Of a DNA stretch of 64,000 bases, positions 3,714 through 63,100 are shown in pieces; the stretch's first letter is position 1; each line of letters opens with the position of its first letter. The translations under genes and the position numbers were made by a program. The stretch comes from Oryzias latipes (taxonomy: Eukaryota; Chordata; Actinopteri; Beloniformes; Adrianichthyidae). The stretch spans positions 28,143,973-28,207,972 of the forward strand of contig NC_019859.2 of NCBI RefSeq assembly GCF_002234675.1, given 5' to 3'. The notes below the pieces were generated by a model. That model had not been told where the DNA came from and did no database searches. It worked only from the letters and a program-made list of their open reading frames with translations.

Positions 3714-4100
3714 AGCTGCGTTTACATGGGCAAAAGTAATCGGAAAGAACGCATGATCGGAAAGAAAATGCGTCATGTAAACGCGCCGTTCGGAATACTC
3801 TGCCCCGATCAGACTCGTTCCGATCAAAATTTCTTTCAGATCGAGATAGGTGGGTTATACCGATCCTTTATCCGATCGTTGTGCATGTTAAAAGTTCATT
3901 CCGATCATGTGTCACTACTGCTCTGGTTTACGTCACACATAGATGGTGTTTCGCTAAAAGAAAGCTTTGGAGCGCATACAGGACCGACCAGCTGCTCTGC
4001 AGCGGCCCCGTGAAAAGCGCCGCTCCGCTCTCGCCCCGCTGGCTCTTCACCTCTCTTACACCCCTCACGACTGAGATGCGGGGGAGGACAGAGTGAGCAG
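3714..4100. mobile_element. DNA transposon terminal fragment (CCGATC-rich)
   Basis: The stretch opens with GCTGCGTTTACATGG, a start I associate with common teleost DNA transposons. It carries many copies of CCGATC/GATCGG, as expected of subterminal binding repeats, and then a GC-rich segment. No second terminus was found, so it is either a truncated copy or one end only. The long reading frame across it matches no protein I know. Confidence 0.45.
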
Positions 4101-4406: not shown

Positions 4407-4412
4407 TGTGGG

Positions 4413-4945
4413 TATGGAGTTATTTCAGTCTCAGTAATCAGAAATGCACACAACCGGTTTTACAAATACACACGCTCCGATTCACAAATGTCATTTTATG
4501 CAAACGTGAAAAATAAATTCGGAAATACACACCCTGTGTTTCACAAACACACACATTGTGTTTCACAAATGCACACTAAATGTTTTACAAATGCACAATA
4601 AGTGTTTCTCACAAATGTGCACACTGTTTTTCACAAAAACATTTTAGAAATTCACAATAAATGTATCAGAAATGCACAGTAAGTGCTTCACAAACGTGAT
4701 TTTTAGTTACACATGTGATGTGAACTCACAGATCATTCGAATTGCAGAATGTGCATTCAAAATCCCGTTCTCGTTTGTGAATCTCCCCGTGTGTGTGAGA
4801 GATTTTTCTACGGTGAATATTGAGACTCATCTGACGGAGCAGGCTGACTAATGTCACCATTGGCTAGTGAATCTGTCAATCAAACTCATCGGAAAAGCAG
4901 GCGGGTTCGCTTTTAGCCAATCGAATGGCCCCTTACACTTTCTCT
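4413..4945 (+). repeat. Left terminal inverted repeat of IS3EU-like element
   Basis: Reverse-complementary to about 10390-10921 with few differences. The outer 280 bp contains a short-period array (roughly 20-25 bp) of CACAAATGCACA-like units separated by TGTTT runs, suggesting repeated transposase-binding sites. The inner 200 bp (ATTGGCTAGTGAATCTGTC...) is unique. Confidence 0.85.
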
Positions 4946-6456
4946 ACGCTTTCTGCAGGTGGCAAAAGCCCCGCCCATGTTTGATTGTGTACCAGTCGGT
5001 CGTTGGCGTGTTAGCTTTAGCATGCCTTGTCGGTTTATTTGCTTCGGTTGTCAAAAATTACAGGCTTGCGCAACTTTTCAGTGGACCTGGGAGCAAGGCA
5101 ACAGTGGTTGAATGCAGTTGACAGAATCCATCGAACTCTGTACTGGTCATGAGATTTAAAATGAATGTTTCACTCGGGATCGTTTGTACGTTATTCTCTT
5201 AGCTTTCATGCTAGCGTCATTTCAACACTCAGAAACGGTTCCCTTCAGTCTTGATCATCTGAAGGTGGAGAAAAATCTTTAACTTCCACAGTAGGTTCTG
5301 TGGAGAAACTGGCATCACTTTGCTCCGTACCACGCAGTGGGACTACCTTACCTCAAGTTCATCTCACTGTCAATCACAGATACCCAATACACCTCCCCTG
5401 CTCAGCCCAAAGTCACTTTGCCAGACCTTAATTTTATTTTTTTAATAACTCAAATGGCATTAATTTTATATGGTAACCACATATACACCTCTTGGCCAGG
5501 TCACCCTTGCAAAAAAGATCCTCATCTCTCTGGGTTTTATAGCTGGTTAAATACTACACAACAAAAGATGGTCATAGAACAACAAAGTGCAAACATTCAC
5601 CCTTTATTGCAGAGTAAAATTCAGTGAAAACATGGACAGATTAAAACATCAAAATTTAAGCAAATGTGGGATCTCTACTGATTTGAATTTTATTTAAACT
5701 GGAACTAATTTTCATAACATCCTTACATACAATAAAGTCCCTTGAACAATACAGCAGTATTGATCTGAACTCTGTCTTGCTCCCCTCAGTCTCTCTTCTT
5801 CTGTATGTAATTATGTCGCCTAAATTAAGTTCTAAACAAACGGGACAGTAAAGATGTAGGTCCACTCCCAAACGGTCTGAATTAAACAATGGGTTGATGT
5901 CGTCTTGCAGTTCCAACATTTGTGGACCCAAAAGGGGACTGTCCCATACTGGGACATTGATCCCAGGATGAGGTTCAGTCATGGATCCACTCTCCTCCCA
6001 TTCAATCTCTGGAACCAGCATACCCTGACAAAAAAAAAAAAAAGATGCTGTTTATGAACAGCACTGTTTTTTTAAATGTTTTAGATTATGTAGGAACAGA
6101 GACCCACTAATAATGACTTATATTGTTTCTGGCAGGCAGACCTCATATCTCCATAACTGTTTTTAATTTGCAAATAAGTGACTCTTAACAAAGTAGTGAG
6201 ATTAGTACAGCTGATGGCTCATAATGCCGTGCATTGTGATGCATTTTGAACTTGCAGATGTGCTATTCTTCCTACTTGATTTAAAAACCAAACAATTTAG
6301 GGAAATAGTTTGCATCACACAACAATAATACTTTTCATTCATTTTTGATGAAAATTCCTTGTAGTCATTGTGATTTCATTATACTGTTCTTGATACTTTC
6401 CACTTTAGTCGAACTGCACACACATCAGTTGTCCAGTACAGTGAGATTAAATAAAG

Positions 6457-6950
6457 CAGTGTTTTTCAACCAGTGTGTGTGCCGCGGCACACTAGTGTGC
6501 CGTGGGGAATTGCCCTCATTAACTGATCTAAAAACATTTCCCATCTCCAGGAAATCAGCTCTTTGTTTATCCAAACAGGCCCTGATAAAACACTCAGTAG
6601 TTAGGAATATGAAAGATCTTAAAATGACTTTTTCTTTGTGTTTATTTAATTCTATAAAATACATTTTGATAAGGTTGACGGTACCGCGATTTAGCTGCAG
6701 CTATAACTGTGTAAGGAAAAATCCTGCCCCTTTAACTGTCTCCGCCAATCATTCTTGAAGGCTTAATCACATGTCATCAGTCTGACCAATCAGAAGTGGT
6801 TAAAGTCTTCACTTCCTTGTTCTTAATTCTGCTGATAAATTCGCTCAGTTATAACAAAAATACCAGCTAAAGCTCGTCTTTAGCGGTGTAACTTTCCACA
6901 GAGTCCGGTGTCAGACCGTGGAACAAGTGAACAAAGGTTGAAAAACACTG
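6457..6950. mobile_element. hAT MITE in the intron of the IS3EU gene
   Basis: Termini CAGTGTTTTTCAACC and GGTTGAAAAACACTG are perfect inverted repeats. The 8-bp duplication AAATAAAG is at 6449-6456 and 6951-6958. The 494-bp copy has no transposase. It lies 8 bp from the splice donor of the exon ending at 6966. Confidence 0.93.
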
Positions 6951-7801
6951 AAATAAAGCACTTACCCGGGGATCAGAAACAGGGTTCTGGGTCAAGTCCA
7001 ACTGGCACAGCTGATTTGGTGTCATGCTTTGCTCCGTCCTGATTGGATGGCTGTCCCACACGTCACTAAAGACATCCAAACTGGCCTGAATGCGTGGTAG
7101 GAAAATGTAATGGCAGCAGAATACGTGATGTTACTGATATTGAGCAAGTCTTGGTTCTCAGGAGAGTGCAGGATGTTGTAATATAAACCAGTAACACTCA
7201 CGAAGACATCACACCAGAGGGGCTCAATCCTGTATTTGGAAAAAAGCAAAAAGAAATATTATATTGTCAGATTTATTTTTAATACATCATTCACTTTTAT
7301 GTATATATTAAAGCGTCTAAAACTAGGTTCAACTCACCGTTGATTGTGTGTACACTTTTGCTGCAATGAAGCTGTTTGTGTCAGTTCTACATACTGTGAG
7401 CATTAACTCGGCTATGCCCACATTTTCTCCTCCGTGATCTCCTCTCACCCTGACAATAACATGAAAATCATGTCTCAAACACATAATTACAAATGCATCG
7501 CCAATACGGTACACATCAATTTAAAATGTAATGTTCTTATGTATGATGCCAATAAGTAGAATTTCTAGGTTAGATAAATTGCAGGAGTGGGTTACATGTA
7601 TCACTGGGGAAAAAATTGAGGTGAGAGAGACTGTTGAGGGGGGGTAAAATGTTGTTCATGAGGGGAAAGAGTTTTACAGTTGCCTTTGTTTTCAGAGGAG
7701 TCTAAAAAAAGTTATTTTATTTTTGTACAAATAACCAAGTGCTTATACTGCCTGATATGTGAATAAAAGATTTATTTATGAATAACATGAATACCTCAGA
7801 G

Positions 7802-8918
7802 CAGGGGTCGGGAACCTTTTTGGCCAAGAGAGCCATAAACGCCACATATTTTTAAATGTAATTTCGAAAGAGCCATACAATAATGTAGTGTCCTTTTCCC
7901 ACACGGAGACTTAACCTCTTTTAAGGTTCTTTATTCTGGTTAATGCAGGCTGTAACAAATGCCGTAAATTAATTCAGCAGCTCCTGAATCTCTCCCGCCG
8001 AGACGAAAGCGCTTCTCCCAACTTTATATTCCCCCCTCCCGCTCCAGCCCTCCCATTTCCCTTATTCGGCCCATAGCTGAACCCCATTGGTCCAAATTAA
8101 CCAACAACAGGCTGAGCGACAGAAGTAAGAGCCAATCAGATCTCTGCTTGATGCGTTCAAGGAACTCCAGAACTTTTAACGCGGCCCAACAGCCAAGTTA
8201 AACTCAGTCCGCTACAATATGTTTAAAACTAAATATTCAAGTGAATGTGTGCATTTGATATAATTTCAACACTTTTAAAGTACAATAAGTCTGTGGATTA
8301 TTTTTAATAACATTGTTATGCTGTTGCTAATAAATGATGAGTATTTCTCGTGGTAGTTTTGTTGATGGTCTAGTCTGGTTGATACGTGGTGAGTTTCTGC
8401 TTCATGCAGGTGTTGAGACTTTAAACGTGATCATAGGTCTGAATGTTCTGTAAATGTGAGACAGACTGATCACATGCAGACGCGGAGCCAAACACACACT
8501 CACACGCTGCAGTGAGTGACGGGCAGCAGGTTTTATGTTTTTACAATCCCTGCGCGGTTCACCTTACTGACCGAGCCCACAACTCCACCCTCACCCTCTG
8601 CTTTCTCCCTCTCAGTCACATCCCGTCCCCGCTACTGCGCGCTCTTTCTCAGAGACGGGGGCGCGCAGTTTTAGGCACGGCAATTCACAGGTTTCCGGCT
8701 GGTACAAACTCTGTGAAATAATAGATAAAAGTAAAGTGATAATGCTGGCGCAGATCCTTCTCTCCAAGCACCGCTACTACTGTGCGCCTCTGCCATCGCA
8801 TCGCGCCCGAGAAGGACTGGTCTAATGAAAAAGAAAAAATTAAAAATGTGTCTGCGAGCCACATGTGACCATCAAAAGAGCCATATATGGCTCGCGAGCC
8901 ATAGGTTCCCGACCCCTG
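7802..8918. mobile_element. Non-autonomous hAT element at an exon-intron boundary
   Basis: Termini CAGGGGTCGGGAACC and GGTTCCCGACCCCTG; the perfect 8-bp duplication CCTCAGAG lies at 7794-7801 and 8919-8926. The 1117-bp interior has no transposase domain. The target is the 3' end of an exon of the host transposon's gene: the duplicated bases read CTCTGAGG on the minus strand and include the G of the GT donor. Confidence 0.94.
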
Positions 8919-9659
8919 CCTCAGAGGAAAGCCATACACGTTCACAGCGTCGCTGAAGAAGGCCAAGTCTGCACAGTTGTTGTCTGCCATCTTCAGGTAC
9001 AAGATCTATGGAATACAAGTACAAATACTTTCAACTGACAGATATTTACAGGGGCAAAAATGCTAAATTCCCAATTGATAGGTAAAACAGTGATACAATA
9101 GGATGATAAAATATGAAATAGAATAGAATAGAAAGGTATTTAGGATGTCACGCTTCAGCAATTCCTAGAGAATAAATAAAAACACAACAAACATGGATTA
9201 GATCATTTAACTGTCTGAGATTAAATTACATAATTTTCAAATATTAGAAAGGGGAATTTTTTAAAACACTCTTGCTATGATAACTTGAGCTTGTAGTAAA
9301 GAACAGCTTTAATTAAAAAAAAATCAGAGACAAGACACTGATCACAGGAAGCCTGTGTGTAATACTTACAGTAACTTCTACTCAAATCACTGTTGACAGC
9401 ATATTTCTCCCATCCGCCCTTTCTGTGACTATTTATCGACTACAAAACAGCCTAAAAACATAATGTTTGGGATTCTTGTCATTACGTCATTGGAAGTAAA
9501 GACACGGGGAATTTAGTGGCTGTCACTCTGACACAATCACACAGGGCTTTTCAGCACAATACGGGTTCTAACGTTAGAAACTAATGAGGCTGCTTTCATT
9601 CAACAGGGGATTCACGTCTTTTATATTTAAAAAAATGCTGTTTTCATGAATGTCATATG

Positions 9660-9930
9660 AATTAACTTTGTTGCACATATCCACCCCGTCTTAAAGTCTG
9701 GGTTGTGAAAAGACTGTGTCTAACTTTAACCCGGATCGCGTTTACATAAAGGCAGCACACGGAACAACTAACTTACTAGCTAGTTAGCATAGCATCAGTG
9801 TTTAAACAAATCTCGGTCTCCAAATCAATACTTTTTATGAAACTTTATGTGCTGCTGTAAATCCGGCATGTTTTTCCCCTTAGTTCCTTATGAATCATGT
9901 TAAGAACCTACATTGGCTGTATATCTAGCT
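9660..9930. repeat. Dispersed repeat shared with 53150-53410
   Basis: Shares TGAATTAA.TTTGTTGCA, ACACGGAACA, TAGCATAGCAT and CTCCAAATCAA.ACTTTTTAT with 53150-53410 in the same order and orientation. It lies within the IS3EU-like element, upstream of the transposase exons. Confidence 0.6.
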
Positions 9931-10389
9931 TGAACCGACACCGCCTTCACTCACAGGGCAGGCAGACACAATTTGAGTCGAGAGCCGGTTAGTTTCAAGG
10001 CCCCTGGTTGGTTGTAGTTACTCGTGTTGTGTGAAGAGCTGGTATGCCAAGTATAAAACTTGACAAAACCATCATAAGTCCTCCCCCGCTTTCATAAAAA
10101 ATATGACCGCACAGGCTATGCTAATTTGCGGTGGGGGTACTCTGCAAACGACTCGGCTGAAGTGTTCATAAAGCATTCACACATGTCACTTGGCTAAGGA
10201 GACCGCTTCAACTTAGTATTCAATAACATTACATACATTAAAGGCATTACAACGAGGGAATAATAATCAAATAAGTGCATTAATTACGGGCTGAGACTCA
10301 TCCCGTTCGGAAGACCTCTCCGCCATGTTTGCCGCCCGCGTCCTCCCAACTGCTGTGCTGAACAGCTCCCTCCCTCGTCAGTTAGAAAG

Positions 10390-10921
10390 TGAGGAGTGTA
10401 AGGGGCCATTTGATTGGCTAAAAGCGAACCCAGCTGCTTTGCCGATGAGTTTGATTGACAGATTCACTAGCCAATGGTGACATTAGTCAGCCTGCTCCGT
10501 CAGATGAGTCTCAATATTCACCGTAGAAAAATCTCTCACACACACGGGGAGATTCACAAACGAGAACGGGATTTTGAATGCACATTCTGCAATTCGAATG
10601 ATCTGTGAGTTCACATCACATGTGTACCTAAAAATCACGTGTGTGAAGCACTTACTGTGCATTTCTGATACATTTATTGTGAATTTCTAAAATGTTTTTG
10701 TGAAAAACAGTGTGCACATTTGTGAGAAACACTTATTGTGCATTTGTGAAACATTTAGTGTGCATTTGTGAAACACAATGTGTGTGTTTGTGAAACACAG
10801 GGTGTGTATTTCCGAATATATTTTTCACGTTTGCATAAAATGACATTTGTGAATCGGAGCGTGTGTATTTGTAAAACCGGTTGTGTGCATTTCTGATTAC
10901 TGAGACTGAAATAACTCCATA
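10390..10921 (-). repeat. Right terminal inverted repeat of IS3EU-like element
   Basis: Mirror of the left terminus, with the same array of TTTGTGAAACAC-type units. Just inside it, at about 10325 on the minus strand, is a possible first ATG (MAERSSERDESQP, then GTAATT). This may be the start of the element's gene, but that is inference. Confidence 0.85.
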
Positions 10922-11189
10922 TGTGGGCGTGATTTTCACACGAGGTCCATCGGACGATCTTCTGAATATGCAAATGCAGGGTTTTTATACCAAAGCCCAT
11001 CCCTGAGCTCGTTGGTTCGGACTTTGAATGCACCATGTTCATCTGTCTGTCCCCTTCGTGTTTGTGCGAAGTAAACCTCCACAAAAGATAAGTTTTGTCT
11101 CTGAGTCATTATTCATTATTTCTGTGTGTAAGAAACTGACGGGGTTACGAACTAAAATTTAATACAGTCCTTTCTAGAAAATCCAGTTT

Positions 11190-11560: not shown

Positions 11561-14500
11561 ACTGACTACACGGATTAAATTAAACGATGAGCGAACAGGC
11601 ACTTCATAATATTCATAACATTAATAAAAGCACGTTTGGAAGATCATCTCGTATATTACCGAGCTGCTGCATAAAAGTCTGTAGCAGCGGCTTGTTTACA
11701 ACGGGACCCATCTCCTCTTCCGGGTTTTTTTTTTTACCACCACCATGGAACTAACCACCACAATGCCTAAATGATTTATTCCAACCGAAAGTGTGAGCCA
11801 TGGGAACACTTGTTCTAATTGGAAAAAGGTTTTCTGTGCCCATGTGCACGGGTGAATTTTAACCTGACCATTGATCCGATCAAGATATTTTTCCCATGCA
11901 ACCGCGGCTATAGTTAGTGGTTGAGTGAAGCCATTTATTGTCAAAAAGTTATGTTTGATGGTTTAGGTGATCACGGCTAAGAAGACAGGTATTTAGTCCA
12001 AAAATAAATCATTTTTTAATGTCAAAGTACACTAAGTCCAACTGAACGAACATTACTGGTCTAAAGGAGCCCATAAAAGAGGTCAACTTAACAGAATCGA
12101 ATTGATTTGTATCTTAGGAAAAAACTAAAAGAACTAACCTGCCATTACCACACAATTGGAGGACTTTTAAATGAGTGGACGGACTACAGATATTTAGCTC
12201 GAGTGGGCGGCTCGACTGTATCGATCTTTTAAAGCGGTAGTGTCATTGCTGGTGTATCGAACTCTCCCTTCAGATTGTGTTTCTCATGGGACTTTCCAAA
12301 TGAAGTTTCATTTCATCACACGCGTATTGCTGAGTGCCGGCCCTTTGCGGTGGTTTTGAATTCAGAGCGGGGTTTTCAATACGTCTGTTCTTCTAGAGAG
12401 ACGTCACTCATCTTGTGTGTGTGGCGTTAGGAGAGTAGTAATTCAGTTCAATTCCATTTTATTTACATGAGTTGGTTGCAGATGTTTTTTCTCTCTCTTT
12501 AAGCTGCAAGCTCTTTTACCTGCAGCATCCGCACACAAACCAAAAAAAAGGAAGAGAGGAAGACAAAGAAAGACAGGTGCTACAGGAATAAACACCAACA
12601 CACAAAGATAGTAAAGAAAATACGACACCAGGAAAAGAGGCAAAATCTGAAACCATTTCCCTTTTAAAAATCTAGAGTCTGCAAGAAAAGAATTTCATTT
12701 AGAACGGGATCTGAATCCCCATTTGCACCTCAGAACTGAGAATCTTAAAACCAGAGCAGATCATTACTGACTGAAGAAACCAGATCCGCTCCTCAAAGCT
12801 GAGGCACTTAGTTATTTTAAATACCAACTTTATGTTATTGATTGTTTTTTATTTCTCGTTCTGCACATTTCAATTCATATTTTGTGTTGTGTTTGCAGTG
12901 TTTTGTGTTGTTTCTCTTTAAATTTGTTTAAAAGGAAATATTTTTTTGAAAATAATATAGTTGTAAGTAGGATTGCAGTTTTATTTGTCTTTTATAATTT
13001 ATTTTTTATATTTTATCTGAAGTGAAAAAAGTAAAAGCACATTCACATCAAACATATAATAAGAAAAACATTTTTTTTAAAACTAACAATTCATTTTGTG
13101 CATTATATTATATTGTTGTCGATAATAAATTAAAGCAAAAAAAACAAACTAAAGAGCTGATTGGAAGCTGAAAGTCAGTCCTTTTTAGTGAGAAGAAACA
13201 GTTCTCTATAAAAGTCAGAATTCCCATCAAGAAAATAAAACGGTTTATTGAATTGAAAGGAATTATAAAAATTATTCGGGATTTTTAATGATTTTTATTA
13301 TAAGATTTTATAAAATGCAATAATGATCTACTCAGATAAACCTGACTTTTTTTCTCTTTTTGTTCTGACCAATCATAGCACGAGCTGACTTGGTTTGGGC
13401 AGGGGGGGATTTAGTGATTGACAGCAATGCTGAGCGAATGGGGTCCCTGATTGTGTTTTCCAGCAGCCAATCAGCGTCCTCCTTTTCTTGTTTCAGGAAG
13501 TTGTCAAACGTGCGGTGAGCTTAAAATGACTTGATAGCAGAGTGTCCTGTTGTTTCATGCGCGCAAACAGCTGCCTAAGTTTCCAACTCGAGAGCTCGTG
13601 AACATTCACGAACTGAAGGAGGGCTTGCGCCAGCCGCAATATCACTGTAGTTGCAGGCAGGGCCTGATGGAGGCGCAACCACGAGTTGGAGAGGAGCAGA
13701 CTGGAGACAGTGGGACGCAGAGGAGCTCCGTAGACGTGGTGCGAGCGAGGTGGGAGGTGGGGGTGCGCCAGAGGCTGGTCTATAAAAGACAAACTTCATT
13801 ATAGTTTTATTTTATTTTTTTTTATCTGCACGACTTTTCCAAACGGAGAGGCCAGATACCCAAGTGACGGATATGACGTCAATCTGTAGTACTTGTTGTG
13901 ACTACAAAGCGTGAACTGTCGTTCCAATATGTAAACATTCATCAACAAAATGTGTTTCTTGTATGGAAAAGATTCAAATCTTCGCTCGAATTACTTCAGC
14001 CGTGTTTTTAATTAATCCGTAGAACTCTCACAGCTAGAAAAGAGGAAAGTCTTTTGTGATCAGTCGCGGACTTAACCATTCTTAGCCCCTTCAAACGCTG
14101 TGATCGAAAAGACTTGTGGGATTGAATTATGGTCAGTCATTTCAGAGAAGAAACTCTGTTTCCTCCTCTAAAGGGGACAATAAAGTGCTCTGGACGATCT
14201 TTCTGTTTTGGAACACTGTCACTTTAGTTATTGACTGATAGAGATGAAGTAACGGAGTAATCTCCTTCATGGATCAAGTTCACTGAGGTAGTAGTCACAT
14301 GCTCTATGAAAAGATGTTTAGGAATCTATTAAACCTGAGGACACCCAAAAAAATCTTAACAAAATTATGGATCAGAGCTGGGGGTTTTTCTGTTTTTATT
14401 TTTATTATTATTATTATCATCATTTTTTGTTATTGTTAAAGGAAACTCTTGAAATAATACCAGAGCCGTTCTTTGGGATTCTCCAACATGTTTAGTGAGA

Positions 14501-29379: not shown

Positions 29380-32300
29380 ATGGCTGAAGGTAAGACTGAA
29401 CTGAAGAATGGAGTCAGAGTGAGACATGAGACAGAAAGAGGGGAAGAGTGTGGAGTCGGACAACGAGGAGAATAAGTAAATGATTATTTTGCATGTGTCT
29501 CGTGTTAACATCAGAAATACAGCTGAGAGAAAAGAGGAGTCTTCGCTCAGACGGGTGTGGTCTGCACAACTTTGATGGTAAGCTTCTTCTTTCTTTTTTA
29601 AAGGTTTTTCTTCATCGTTCATCTGAATTCAACAGTCAAGTAAACATCAGGCAAGCTGTTTTTATTTATTTATTTTCGAATTTTAGTGGTAAATAACCAC
29701 TCCTAAAGATTCTCAGCTGCTTTTCTGACGGAGCCGTTTTTCTGGTTCTGGATCTGAATTCAAAATAACCTGTAGTGCAAAATCTGAATTTCAAGAAAGT
29801 AAAAAGATCTTTTTTTAAATATTGTCTTATTTTCTGGTTTACAAGTAAAAAAATAATTCTATCAATAACAAAATCATCTTAGTTGAAGAAAACATGTATT
29901 TGTGACAATTTCTTAAAATTAAAATTCCTGGTAAAACCATCTTTCTCACCCAAATGGCAGATTTTATTACTGATTTGAAGAAAATCTGCTAATGGGCTGA
30001 GAATTTTTGACTGCTTTCTAATGGGGCTGTGTTTGCAGTGTACATATTTCCTTAAAAGCTACAAGTAAGAATCATGTAACTCTCTTGTTTGAAATGTTTA
30101 TTGGTATTTTTAGCCAATGTGTTTTGTTGTTGGTAACATTTTGTTCTGTTTTCTCTTCTAAAATACTAACAGGAAATACCTAAAAAAATGTTACTTTACA
30201 GTTTAAAACGATCTTCGAATCAGAATATAAGAAAACAAAACACAGATGAACATAATAAAAATTCAAAAATACTATTGAAATAAATGCAAACAAAACTAGA
30301 CAAAGGATGTATAAGATAAGTGTTAAACTTTTGTTAAATTTTAAAACAATTTAATCAAGAAAATGCTTTTATCTTTGGAGTATTCATTAATTAGGAAAGA
30401 TTTTGGGGTTAACTCGGTCAATGCCTCTTTTGTTTCTTTCCCTGCATACATGTTGGACTGCACTATTTTGTACGAACGTTGTTTTGTCTTTTATCACCGT
30501 CCCCTCTTCATCTCCTTGTTTTATTATCATGGTCTGGGTGAATACGTGATTCTGATTGGCTGCAGGGTGTCCAGTGAAAAGTGATGGTTGACACCTCAAA
30601 AAGCAGTTCTGGTCACATAGCCGGAATGTTCTATATTATTGTGCTGATCTGATGACCAGTTGGTAACTGGAACAACAGAAACTTGGAACATAAGTGGACA
30701 TACATTATTCCAGAGTTCATCACAACAGCACAAAAGATTTCTGTCCTTCAGATTTCACCATCATCAGCAATGTTGCCTTTCATTTTAAACAGTTTGTTGC
30801 CTGTCTTTCTGTCTTGCTTACTTCATTGCTTGATACAGAGTAAATATGTGTTTATAAATAATTGTATTATTAACTAATGAAACAACTTGTGTGTTTGCTC
30901 AAACGCTTTTAGTGATCGGAGTTGTGGGTGTTATCTATAATTTGTGGACTTGGTTTCTTTTAAACAAACTTTTGCTTAATCCTCTGGACAAAAACCAACA
31001 GTGAGAGGTGAACTTTCTGTATAAAAGGATGCTTTGTATCACTCAACATGATGTTTAGCACTTTCCTCTGCTAGTTTGTCTTTATAAACCTGCTGCAGGC
31101 TCTGTAGCTGTTGCCAAGATAATGCATTGCACCACATGTAAAATGGTACACTTCCATGAAAAATGATTAAAACTTCAAAAATAACAAGATTAAAGGATTA
31201 TTATTAGTTTTTTCATAAGTGACCATGGTATAGGCAGGATAATGCCCTTTGAGTTGTCCATTTTCAGATATTAATACACTTCAAAGCGGAAGTGGAAGCA
31301 ACCATCCTCCACTTCCGATTGGACGGTTGTCTGCATCGTCCATTCATTTCTGATAATGGACACTTCATCTGGCATTATCCCTTACTTATAGAATCCCTTA
31401 TTCACTGCTTTCACCTCACCATAACAGTAAAACTATGGATGGTGAACTGACTGAGCTTCCTAATTCCTTTGGAGGGAGTGTTTACCGGTTGGTTTGTACA
31501 TGACTGTGACATATGGTAGCAGACTACCACAGACCCCAATAAGCTCCACTCACATCTTAAGAAACCACCATAGACAAACAGACCATGAACAATCCAATAA
31601 ATCTCTATGGACCCAGTTAGACCCCTGCAGATCATTGTAGAACTCAATGGATTTGCCTAGACCCCTATAGCTTCTTATAGATCCACCAAAACTCAAATAG
31701 ACACTATGTTTTTGCAGACCTCTGCAGACTCATGTCTACCCACGGACTTTTGTGAATCTCTACAAAGGAATGTAGATCTACATATGTTCCTGTAGACCTC
31801 AACTGATTCATGCAGAGTAGACCTTTGCAGATCCTTGTAGACTCCATAGACTTATGTTGACCCCTATTGACTCCTATAAACTCCTGTAAACTCTAACAGA
31901 CCGCCAAAAACTTATTTTTGACTTCAGTCTTGTCTGTCTCCTACAGCTCTGGATCTGTCTGGAGGTTTGAGGATTGTCCTTGTTGGAAAGACCGGATCAG
32001 GGAAAAGTGCCACAGGAAACACCCTTCTCGGCAGAGCTGCCTTTAAGGAGGACCCCAGCCCACTTTCCGTGACCAAACACTGTCAGACTCAGACTGGGGA
32101 GGTTGATGGGACTGTGATCCATGTGGTTGACACCCCGGGGCTGTTTGACACGGGGATTACAGAGGAAGACCTGAAGAGCAGAATAGAGGAGTGTGTGAAG
32201 ATGTCTTTGCCTGGCCCTCACGCCTTCCTTCTAGTGATCAGGCTGGGGGTCAGGTTCACAGAGGAGGAAAGAAATGCGGTCAAATGGATCCAGGAAAACT

Positions 32301-32878
32301 TTGGCGACGACGCCTCAATGTACACCATCATGCTGTTTACGTGCAAGGACCAGGGCAAAGCTGACAATGCCTTAAAGGAGTGCAAGGAGCTGCGCAGGCT
32401 CTCCATCACCTTCGGGCGCCGATATCATTCCTTCAACAACAACGATGCAGACGATCGCTTGCAGGTCACCGAGCTGATCCACATGATCAAGGAGATGGTG
32501 CAGGACAATGGTGGGAAGCACTACACCAATGAAATGTATGAGAAAGCTCAGAAAAAGCTGAGGGAAGAGGAGGAGCGGAGGAGGCAAGAGGAGGAGGCCC
32601 AGAGACTGGAAGAGAGGAAAATGTGGGATGCAGAGCGAGAGAAACAGCAGGAACAGAGAGAAAAGAAGAAGAAGGTCAAAAGGAAGAACGTTCGAGTGGC
32701 AGCGGCTGCTGCAGTGGTGCTGGTGTTTGCCGGGGTGGTGATTGCAGTGGGCGCTGACACCACCGTGGCTCTGGCTTTAGGAGCTCCCGCTCTGCTTCTA
32801 GGTGTCCTTTGTGGCTTAGCTGCCATTTCCATGTGGAAAGGTCTGAATTGCAAAGCTAAAAGGAATGTGGCTGTGTGA
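29380..32878 (+). CDS. GIMAP/AIG1-type GTPase
   Basis: Coding exons 29380-29389 (ATGGCTGAAG, donor GTAAGA) and 31947-32878 (acceptor CTACAG) join in phase to give MAEALDLSGGLRIVLVGK... and 313 residues, the usual GIMAP length. The P-loop GKTGSGKS is at about 17-24, DTPG at 65-68, TCKD at 135-138 and the conserved FNN box near 166-168. A charged coiled coil covers about 203-251, followed by a hydrophobic stretch at about 254-299, likely a membrane anchor. GIMAPs are septin-like GTPases on endomembranes that affect lymphocyte survival and vesicle traffic; substrate proteins of this one are unknown. No defects are seen. A possible 27-bp in-frame exon lies at 29551-29577. Fish have many lineage-specific GIMAPs, so no orthologue symbol is given. 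Confidence 0.92.
31220..31393. repeat. Palindromic MITE-like repeat in the GIMAP intron
   Basis: GGATAATGCC near 31239 faces GGCATTATCC near 31371. Between them GGAAGTGGA faces TCCACTTCC around 31290-31320. The outer AAGTGACCATGGTATA also occurs in reverse near 50785-50805, suggesting one repeat family at both places. Confidence 0.55.
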
Positions 32879-42646: not shown

Positions 42647-43783
42647 CGCTGTTATAGGTTGCTTGAATAGGTCTTATCTGTACAGTCCTTGTGTCTTGAA
42701 AGGTACTTGTTACATAAAATTTTTTCCTTGTTATCATCCGCAGCTACAGGTATGATGCCATGCAGTGGAAGCCCACAGCACTGCACAGAGCTACTTAGAG
42801 TGAGGAATGATTACATCATACGAAACTGTTGCCCTGTTTAGTTCTTCTATTTCCTCCAGACTGAGAAGAAGTGCGATGAGGCACAAACTGACAAAGGTTG
42901 CTAAAGGGAACTCTAACCAGATGAGCAAACAAATCCAAAGTCCACAATCCAAAGTTCCAAGGCAGACGGGCAAAAAGAGTTCAGTCAGACAAAACAGACA
43001 GAAAATGAGAACTAGGAACAGAAATGACTTGCTCAGCATTCAAAGCAGTCTGACAATAATTGTCTGTCTGCCTGTTTCTTTTAAAGGGCAGCCACAGGGG
43101 ATTTCACTTATCTGATTACTTTGCAGGCACAAGCCAGATGATCACTTTAGTAATAATTTTAAGATAAAAGCTATAGGAGGACCTTTCAAAATTTACACCA
43201 GTTGGTTTTTACAACCATAGATGTTAATTAAAATGCAATTATAGGACACCTCACAACAAAATGCACAGAATTAATTTTTTAATCAGTGATTTATTTTAAA
43301 GTAAAACAAAATTTTCTTTTTCATGTTTGTGCAAACACAACTATAAAACTTGAGCAATTATATCATGGCATCATGCTAAGAGGTCGAATATAACTTCTGA
43401 TCCAAAGTTTAATAAATCCCTACAGAGTTTAATTTTCTTTATACAGCCATTCTTTAAACCCTTTGTTATCCAGTTTTTATTCATTTGTGTTTTTTTTATT
43501 TCTACATAAAACCTTTTGGAAATGCTTATCCATATTCTAACATTTTCTACCACAAACCTAACCTTTCTTTTCTGAAATACTGAGTGACATAGAGTTTCCC
43601 TGGGGTTATATGCAGGTGTCTCTGGTCCCAAACCCTCGCGAATCCGCAGAATCGGCGAATACAGAGAACCATCCCCGACCCCCACGGGCATTGAATGTCC
43701 ATCACCGATCCTTACTCATCAAAAACCCTTCTGAAACATTTCTTGTTTTTTTTCTTCTGAAACATTTCTGATATTTTTTAGGA
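42647..43783. other. Intergenic spacer
   Basis: No gene is seen. A short segment near 43615-43690 (CCTCGCGAATCCGCAGAATC) resembles a widespread vertebrate repeat but was not resolved. Confidence 0.45.
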
Positions 43784-44269
43784 GTGGAGCCTGACAGAGC
43801 ACAACAGGGACCAGTACCTAAGGACCTATGCACTCAGACATGGTTTAGCAAAAATCACGCAGCTGCAGACCCAATGCCTGTGAGGGGCACAAGGGTTTCC
43901 AGACAAACCACTCATAACCGACTCCACCGCTTTGACTTGAATACCAGACAACAATTACAGTTGACTCCACTGACACCAAGACACCGCTGTGAACATTTGC
44001 AGTGGGCACAACACCATGTGACCTGGACAAGGCAGCAGTGGCCCACCATCCTGTTCACTAATGAGTGTTGGGTTACCATGCACAGAAATGATGGTCATCA
44101 GTGTTGCTTGGAGATGGTTGGCTTTGGTGGAGGAGCTCCAACAGTCTGGGCAGGCATCACCAGTCAGCACAAAACTGATTTGGTTATTGTAGATGGCTCA
44201 GTCACTGCATATTCTTACCTCAGAGTCATCATAGAACCATCATCCCCCAATTCCAGTTTTACACAATAA
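43784..44269 (+). pseudogene. Tc1-like transposase fragment
   Basis: One open frame of 161 codons. VSRQTTHNRLHRFDL and LTPRHRCEHLQWAQHHVTW match the Tc1 linker. LFTNECWVTMHRNDGHQC matches the block around the first catalytic Asp, here Asn. FGGGAPTVWAGI and TDLVIVDGSVTA match the following block. The second Asp and Glu motifs and the inverted repeats are absent. The copy is truncated and inactive despite the open frame. Confidence 0.85.
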
Positions 44270-45236: not shown

Positions 45237-59502
<14,266 letters not shown>

Positions 59503-61505: not shown

Positions 61506-63100
61506 CACTGACCAAAAATATAAATGCAACACTTGTTATTGCTACAATTTATTATGGTATGAACTCAAAGATGTGAAACATTTTCCACATATACAAAATA
61601 ACCAGTTCTCTGAAATATTGTTCACAAACAATAGTGAGCACTTCTCCTTTGCCAAGACAATCCACCCCACCTCACAGGTGTGCCATATCAACATGCTGAT
61701 TAGACAGCATGATTATTGCACAGGTGTGCCTTAGACTGGCCACAAGAAAAGGCCACTCTGAAATCTTCAGTTTTGTTTTATTGAGGGGGTCAGGGGACTC
61801 AGACAACCAGTCAGTATCTGGTGTGACCACCATTTGCCTCATGAAGTGCGACACATCTCCTTCACATAGAGTTGATCAGGTTGTCTATTGTGGCCTGTGG
61901 AATGTTAGTCCACTCTTCTTCAATGGCTGTGCGAAGTTGCTGGATATTGGCAGGACCTGGAACACGCTGTTGTATACGCCGATCCAGAGCATCCCAAACA
62001 TGCTCAATGGGTGACATGTCCGGTAAGTATGCTGGCCATGCAAGAACTGGGATGTTTTCAGCTTCCAAGAATTGTGTACAGATCCTTGCAACATGGGGCC
62101 GTGCATTATCATGCTGCAACATGAGGTGATGTTGGATGTACGGCACAACAATGGGCCCCAGGATCTTGTCACGGTATCTCTGTGCATTCAAAAGGCCATC
62201 ACTGAAATGCACCTGTGTTCTTCGCCCAGAGCATACACCTGCCCATACCATAACCCCACCACCACCATGGGCTACTCGATCCACCGCTCTCCCACACAAC
62301 GCCACACACGCCGTCTGCCATCTGCCCTGAACAGTATAAACCGGGATTCATCCGTGAAGAGAACACCTCTCCAATGTGCCAGACGCCATCGCATGTGAGC
62401 ATTTGCCCACTCAAGTTGCTTACGACGACAAACTGGGAGGAGGGCGAGACCTCCATGAGTACAACGAGTATGCAGATGAGCTTCCCTGGGACAGTTTCTG
62501 ACAGTTTGTGCAGAAATTCTGTGGTCATACAAACCGATTGTTTCAGCAGCTGTCCGAGTGGAGCTGGTCTCAGACGATCTTGGAGGACGACATGCTAGAT
62601 GTGGAGGTCTTGGGCTGGCGTGGTTACACGTGGTCTGCGGTTGTGAGGCCGGTTGGATGTGCTGCCAAATTCTCGGAAACGCCTTTGGAGACGGCTTATG
62701 GTGGAGAAATGGACATTTAATTCCCTAGCAACAGCTCTGGTGGACATTCCTGCTATCAGCATGCCAATTGCACACTCCCTCAAAACTTGCAACATCTGTG
62801 GCATTGTGTTGTGTGATACAACTGAAGATTTCAGAGTGGCCTTTTCTTGTGGCCAGTCTAAGGCACACCTGTGCAATAATCATGCTGTCTAATTAGCATC
62901 TTGATATGGCACACCTGTGAGGTGGGATGGATTGTCTTGGCAAAGGATAAGTGCTCACTATCACAGATTTAGACAGATTTGTGAACAATATTTCAGAGAA
63001 CTGGTTATTTTGTGTATGTGGAAAATGCTTCACATCTTTGAGTTCATACCATAAAAAATAACAAATAACAAAAGTGTTGCGTTTATATTTTTGGTCAGTG
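61506..63100 (-). mobile_element. Tc1-like transposon with about 240-bp inverted repeats
   Basis: CACTGACCAAAAATATAAA and TTTATATTTTTGGTCAGTG are flanked by TA (61504-61505 and 63101-63102). The ends stay complementary for about 240 bp with few differences, so the insertion is fairly young. It is 1595 bp, the usual Tc1 size. Confidence 0.95.
61862..62876 (-). pseudogene. Tc1-like transposase, three frames
   Basis: Minus strand. 62876-62595 has the paired-like domain ([20 protein letters not shown]). 62532-62272 has [11 protein letters not shown] and VLFTDESRFILF, with the first Asp. 62305-61862 has GGGGVMVWAGVCSG, LMLQHDNARPHVA with the second Asp and PDMSPIEHVWDAL with the Glu. The DDE residues survive, but two frame shifts separate the three parts. 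Confidence 0.93.

Follow-up and report, generated by a model that had tools for sequence, protein, structure and literature searches.

We analysed a 64,000-nucleotide stretch of the medaka (Oryzias latipes) genome, here called the window (assembly GCF_002234675.1, contig NC_019859.2; C1:28143973-28207972 of the 734,051,031 bases and 25 contigs, G000, that were searched), in which positions 4413-10921 hold an IS3EU-like DNA transposon carrying two smaller insertions. An initial annotation, made from the window's letters alone, had delimited this element correctly: both ends read TATGGAG (TATGGAG..CTCCATA), and the inverted repeats, put there at about 530 bp, are 527 nt each with 8 mismatches between them (left terminal inverted repeat 4413-4939, plus strand; right 10395-10921, minus strand). 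The 6-bp target site duplication, TGTGGG, is perfect (4407-4412 and 10922-10927). Both arms contain a subterminal array with a 22-bp period, in the left arm of about five units (4523-4641, plus strand) and in the right at 10697-10811 (minus strand); the left-arm units are candidate transposase-binding sites. A 13-base motif, taken from the very left arm in which it was then counted, matched there 10 times (two of these overlapping), whereas 500 simulated arms had 0.7 matches on average and never more than 6. The TAYGGAG heptamer alone had 12 matches in the window against 7.65 expected, which is not significant (12 was reached in 7/100 shuffles), and the weight of the evidence lies in the ends, long arms and duplication together, not in the heptamer. 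Rfam and tRNA scans gave no match.

Within the element are the remains of a transposase gene, of which five minus-strand pieces were scanned against Pfam. Three matched the integrase-core family rva_4 (PF24764), at 6960-7130 (E 2e-11), 7022-7258 (E 7.9e-6) and 7329-7520 (E 0.0022, under the curated cut-off), so the integrase-core exons were indeed recognisable; the other two pieces had no Pfam match, and rva_4 was the sole family found at E up to 1. With limits read from the sequence, the minus-strand exons are a core exon ILYLKMADNNCADLAFFSDAVNVYGFPLR at 8919-9005 (no Pfam match by itself; 71% identical to its counterpart in the coding relative L056/L064 described below), a core exon at 7338-7449 with VRGDHGGEN, which includes the second catalytic D, a core exon at 6966-7229 with R-I-E-P-L-W (the third acidic residue) and the motifs HYIFLPR and HPIRTEQ, and an open C-terminal exon at 5656-6024, its splice acceptor likewise placed from the sequence and without a Pfam match. 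The longest frame overlapping the element is 149 amino acids. A PDB search with the core exon gave no match, and a profile of four relatives gave a weak one to the integrase core of human T-lymphotropic virus 2 (HTLV-2; E 0.0016). A structure prediction of a relative's core from four sequences was unusable (mean predicted local distance difference test score, pLDDT, 35.7), and scans of viral contigs and genome contigs with the core exon yielded 11 and 91 stretches that fit a pattern, 0 of them confirmed.

Two inserts lie within this gene. The first, hAT#1 (494 bp, 6457-6950), stands between 8-bp copies of AAATAAAG (6449-6456 and 6951-6958) in the intron after exon 6966-7229. The second, hAT#2 (1117 bp, 7802-8918), stands between 8-bp copies of CCTCAGAG (7794-7801 and 8919-8926), at what reads as the splice donor of exon 8919-9005. 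Elements of the hAT superfamily make 8-bp duplications and have short CAG..CTG inverted ends, and both inserts have these ends; their duplications are perfect, as the initial annotation had it. Elsewhere in the window, 49224-50592 has CAGGGGTGTCAAAC ends that are 100% complementary over 14 nt, and we take it to be another hAT-like element.

A genome-wide search with the 22-base end, allowing at most 3 mismatches, found 290 forward and 301 reverse matches (2 and 3 for the reversed control pattern). Among 100 end matches listed, pairing by eye gave 41 long copies, not counting the pair in the window itself or a further pair of 119 bp; 40 of these 41 were fetched and compared with the window element, making 41 copies in total. 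As the copies were found by their ends, identical ends in them are no independent evidence. Perfect 6-bp duplications, sharing no fixed sequence, flank 33 of the 40, so that copies elsewhere in the genome have the duplication length that had been proposed as a check; the imperfect ones agree at 5/6 (L042, L044, L049), at 4/6 (L031) or at one or two of 6 positions (L016, L030, L035). The arms are ungapped at 527 nt in 27/40, and 18/40 have a length of 5,374-5,432 bp. Ends found genome-wide, together with varied perfect duplications, show that the window element is not a product of chance.

Some of these copies are young. Over 5340 aligned positions L025 and L026 show a single difference, but their duplications are not the same (AGATCT and TAAAAG), which suggests that the family moved recently. 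Across 38 of the 41 copies (L016, L033 and L040 excluded), variation is 0.92% at positions 23-200 from either end, 1.4% in the inner arms and 2.2% in the DNA between the arms, and the low value at the outer ends would fit selection for movable ends. We rejected the identity between the two arms as a clock, as four copies at different sites (L012, L022, L036, L042) have the same arm mismatches (146, 224, 236, 262, 288, 295, 330) and arm differences are therefore inherited.

The nearest coding relative among 13 short loci examined was L056, extended as L064 (on C19). It has the core exon in one frame and, upstream, an exon with HIDTNHKLIR; a D-G-N-H-K-L motif is present in 3/4 other lineages aligned. 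By analogy with retroviral integrases, we take the D of these motifs to be the first catalytic D; it is residue 217 of the 226-amino-acid L064 frame, counted from the start of the frame, not of the protein. The window family lacks L064 2103-3955, a segment that holds nearly all of this first-D exon, and the junction, converted to window coordinates, falls at 9119-9144 (minus strand). The absence was established by direct comparison for the window element and 10 copies, and for the rest via collinearity with L012. A genome search with the first-D exon (E up to 1e-10) gave 33 matches, all 92 candidates being scored, and none lies within the 41 copies. With this exon missing, the 41 copies cannot make a complete transposase and the family, as its sequence reads, is non-autonomous, a property of the window copy and of the other copies examined that had been missed by the initial annotation. 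The window copy thus has an incomplete catalytic triad, which marks it as a dead derivative and is no argument against its membership in IS3EU.

The first-D exon is 100% identical at two loci only, C18:16751757 and C19:23577282 (next best 49%), and both fall within large elements with L064-type ends. The genome has 12 forward and 8 reverse ends of this type; they pair as a 16,461-bp element at C18:16750092-16766552 (flanks CAAAGC/CAAAGC, 6/6), a 16,454-bp element at C19:23575617-23592070 (GGACTT/GAACTT, 5/6) and a 13,654-bp element at C11:661220-674873 (GCAATG/GCAATG), inside which the genome search found no first-D exon match, with two further pairs of less than 100 bp on C17 and C24. The TATGGAG-type end was the search key for the C18, C19 and C11 elements. 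The C18 and C19 copies are identical over their first 109 bp and have different flanks; their frames are open in the exons seen, and a frame that matches zf-RVT (long interspersed nuclear element-like) also lies within L064. The right arm of L012 is 94.9% identical to the left arm of L064, and the deleted family is mostly 75-86% identical to the L064 interior. The 16.5-kb element of C18 and C19 is a likely parent type of the deleted family.

This lineage carries a second gene. On the minus strand of L064, 7976-8236 matches the Pfam HECT family above the cut-off (E 3.2e-6; profile positions 266-304 of 306), and AHTC in this exon aligns with AHTC of HUWE1 (E 0.01); we take its C to be the catalytic cysteine of the HECT C-lobe. 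The exon (86 amino acids) sits inside both 16.5-kb elements, convergent with the transposase, and both it and the 226-residue first-D exon are 100% identical between the two. Searching the genome for this exon yielded 16 matches (41/41 candidates scored), 13 of them without a stop. For 15 of these, an IS3EU-type transposase exon, either rva_4 or first-D, lies at a distance of 486-2,990 bp, in convergent orientation every time; around the sixteenth (C18:25556530, 82% identity), no such exon was found over 459 kb. Sorted by their identity to the query exon, the matches form at least three groups (100%, 82% and 37-49%), and since some are almost identical to one another, the independent lineages are fewer. 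Many first-D exon matches have no HECT match (E up to 1e-8) nearby, and the pairing of transposase and HECT is therefore common, not universal. The 41 deleted copies contain not one of the 16 HECT exons.

The HECT exon might instead belong to a separate transposon or to a host gene caught in the same places. The part seen is an 86-residue tail, the C19 element was read over its left 9.0 kb, one of the 16 exons stands by itself, and the HECT loci at which ends and duplications were examined are the C18/C19 pair. Set against this are the convergent arrangement within 3 kb at 15/16 loci, 13 of the matches lying outside the C18/C19 pair at 37-49% identity, and the position of the exon inside both 16.5-kb elements with their 6-bp duplications (6/6 and 5/6), and we consider a separate origin unlikely. 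We also hold, tentatively and with slightly less than even confidence, a broader proposal: one animal branch of IS3EU would combine a DDE transposase with a conserved, convergent HECT ubiquitin ligase that serves the element's life cycle, for example through the elimination of a host restriction factor or the adjustment of transposase levels, and a closely similar 16.5-kb pair, recently or still active in this genome, would have carried hundreds of deleted copies with their hAT passenger. As a guess, the HECT-like gene might regulate either the transposase or some protein of the host. If it is true that the gene is kept beside the transposase in several lineages, it would represent a type of accessory gene that is new for transposons, and a transposon-borne HECT gene might, we presume, account for some of the HECT/G2E3-like models annotated in fish.

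What is new here is the two-gene layout of transposase and HECT. An IS3EU element in a fish is already ordinary, and the deleted family with its shared hAT is a new member only. Our literature search found no IS3EU element with HECT and none joining HECT, ubiquitin ligase, DNA transposon, transposase and terminal inverted repeats, within a coverage that leaves out most subscription journals and Repbase notes, where it may be known. Passenger genes as such are not new, as fungal IS3EU elements already carry an alpha-kinase. In excerpts of a report on fungal IS3EU with TET/JBP dioxygenase, those elements resemble ours in their 6-bp duplications, TAYGG..CCRTA ends and a passenger opposite to the transposase; they differ in that the passenger is an alpha-kinase (plus TET/JBP) there and HECT ubiquitin-ligase-like here (PMC12730594).

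Turning to the window element itself, it is very probably a non-autonomous IS3EU copy that was moved in trans by a transposase of the C18/C19 type. The 16.5-kb lineage with two genes (C18, C19) would have supplied the transposase that cut and pasted the deleted element, and this enzyme would recognise the common outer ends, perhaps, as a guess, via the 22-bp subterminal repeats. Judging by the DDE/integrase family, cleavage of the paired ends would then be followed by strand transfer with a 6-bp stagger. Non-autonomous deletion derivatives such as Ds keep their ends, have lost their transposase and are moved in trans. The window family likewise keeps its ends and has lost its transposase, and we infer its movement in trans; unlike Ds-type derivatives, it is still about 5.4 kb long, retains a stretch of dead gene and has an inserted hAT that was copied along with it.

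Several points weigh against this account. First, movement in trans is inferred from sequence, and the enzyme could come from another of the genome's rva_4 lineages. Second, the C18/C19 type is a relative and not the direct source, as the interiors are only about 75-86% alike; the two copies are not identical throughout, as their core exons score 99.6 and 97.7 bits, and the C19 copy was read over 9.0 of its 16.5 kb and the C18 copy at its tips only. Third, in the L064 first-D exon both the rva_4 match (positions 2-22, E 0.031) and the helix-turn-helix matches (best 8e-5) are under the cut-off. Fourth, 4/40 copies (L016, L030, L031, L035) have no convincing duplication, the copies in the comparison of end and interior variation were selected by their ends, and in 2% of the 178-bp blocks of the interior, variation is below the mean of the outer ends. 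Finally, L030 is open across one core break, and the nonsynonymous-to-synonymous ratios (pN/pS) of the deleted family's coding pieces are 0.80, 1.28, 0.31 and 0.62, a range of 0.31-1.28 that is not a clean 1 and is too coarse to date the death of the gene.

In a rival reading, the enzyme that moved the family came from some other IS3EU lineage of this genome, not C18/C19. Other rva_4 lineages with open frames do exist (150 matches were scored of 858 candidates in the genome search with the core exon); the shared ends and an arm that is about 95% identical were seen for C18/C19, the one lineage whose ends were compared, and we regard a different enzyme as quite improbable.

The copies also bear on the order of events, which the initial annotation had read as clear from the two nested hAT insertions. 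Alignment in gene orientation shows 1125 bp, made up of hAT#2 and its duplication, to be inserted relative to L012; hAT#1 is not. No match to hAT#2 over 150 bp was found in any of the 40 other copies, and it is specific to the window copy among the 41 examined; that part of the order stands. The same is not true of hAT#1, which is at the same site in 36/40 other copies, absent from L015, L021 and L024, and lost to view in L033, where the region is replaced. Its target CTTTATTT is present once in L015 and L021, and once with one changed base in L024, and all three copies differ at a nearby base from three hAT#1-bearing copies shown, so they look like sites that were never hit. Being common to so many copies, hAT#1 was aboard before the element reached the window, and we rejected it as a local insertion. 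As read from the sequences, hAT#1 first inserted into an ancestral element at some other place; this element then multiplied, one of its copies reached the present site, and hAT#2 struck that copy last. In its CAG..CTG ends, 8-bp duplications and sizes (494 and 1117 bp) the pair resembles other non-autonomous hAT elements, from which hAT#1 differs in having multiplied as part of another superfamily's element. That one superfamily has multiplied inside another warns against deducing the order of nested insertions at one locus only. The copy tree does not cleanly separate hAT#1-bearing from empty copies, so recombination or gene conversion, that is, exchange between copies, is likely. In L013, L037, L038 and L039, another insertion, of about 1.13 kb and without a match to hAT#2, is situated 52 bp away from the point at which hAT#2 entered the window copy.

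The history implied by the initial annotation, an autonomous IS3EU element that was killed here after insertion by two hAT hits and point decay, is accordingly very improbable. The window exons are still recognisable and hAT#2 sits at the splice donor of one of them, as such a history would have it. The deletion of the first-D exon and the core breaks, in contrast, are common to copies at other sites, as is hAT#1. The frame of exon 6966-7229 is broken internally, with the same break in 37/39 other copies retaining the piece (L030 is open there and L043 has two stops), and the second-D piece stops at one common stop in the window, L012, L021, L041 and L050, where L064 continues to the presumed end of the exon.

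The assignment to IS3EU is supported by the TA..TA termini, the 6-bp duplications and an integrase-type DDE core seen in the window pieces and the L064 exons, with rva_4 taken as IS3EU-type. Polinton/Maverick elements carry polymerase and capsid genes. In the passages of PMC10045372 on these superfamilies, IS3EU has TA..TA ends and usually 6-bp duplications, lacks HHCC and has its first D 100-300 residues from the N-terminus; Ginger1 makes duplications of 4 bp, Ginger2 of 4 or 5 bp, IS481EU of about 4, 15 or 25 bp, and Polinton also of 6 bp (PMC10045372). Ginger, Polinton and IS481EU all have related integrase cores and Polinton shares the duplication length, but a best match to Ginger or Polinton, named beforehand as grounds for refutation, did not appear in the Pfam scan of the window pieces, the TA..TA ends, the rva_4-only Pfam result, a duplication of 6 bp where Ginger1 and Ginger2 have 4 to 5, and the absence of IS481EU's ends (TNT..AYA or TGT..ACA) and duplication lengths making any of the three scarcely credible.

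The element thus shares its termini, duplications and integrase-type core with the IS3EU/GingerRoot superfamily as outlined in those passages (PMC10045372), and fungal members end in TAYGG..CCRTA in the excerpts cited above (PMC12730594). The window family has 527-bp arms with 22-bp repeats and departs from the superfamily outline in its missing first-D exon and its hAT passenger, and its coding relative here is 16.5 kb long with a HECT-like gene. IS3EU is little annotated, and many of the papers that our literature search listed name it just once or twice. The table of a 2016 survey of four teleost species including medaka has a single IS3EU entry, in a column that we take as zebrafish (PMC4746887). 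The present genome has the material for testing this superfamily: matched ends in the hundreds, clean duplications around recent copies, and a pair of coding relatives.

Some copies have unusual structures. L017 has an extra 43-bp end, about 300 bp (the last part an inverted copy of the right flank) and then the full element; its 6-bp duplication fits the outer ends, and it looks like an aberrant product of transposition or repair. In L033, the middle of the element is replaced by DNA holding a 1213-amino-acid frame that resembles a Ty3-type pol. At three places (C17:13096103-13096199, C24:1694782-1694880 and C3:13781845-13781963) the paired ends are separated by just 97, 99 and 119 bp, making elements of little beyond two ends. 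At its deletion junction, L030 (1771-2005 of the oriented element) has about 220 bp of filler that is common to a clade and had no match when compared with L064.

Around the element, similar inverted ends, GCTGCGTTTACATGGG at 3716-3740 and GCCGCGGTTGCATGGG at 11890-11911, were noticed by eye to enclose the whole region, and the IS3EU copy bracketed by them may lie within an older transposon remnant. Stretches at 9617-9913 and 53105-53411 are 72% identical, and the latter may be what is left of another element of related type. The window also contains a foldback-like element at 1-1925 (inverted arms of about 460 bp, 90% alike, cut by the window start), pieces of Tc1-like transposases at 61862-62347 and 43772-44269 (DDE_3; HTH_Tnp_Tc3_2), an AIG1/GIMAP-type GTPase frame at 31922-32878, and exons at 53970-56200 that presumably belong to a gene resembling that of the mitochondrial dicarboxylate carrier.

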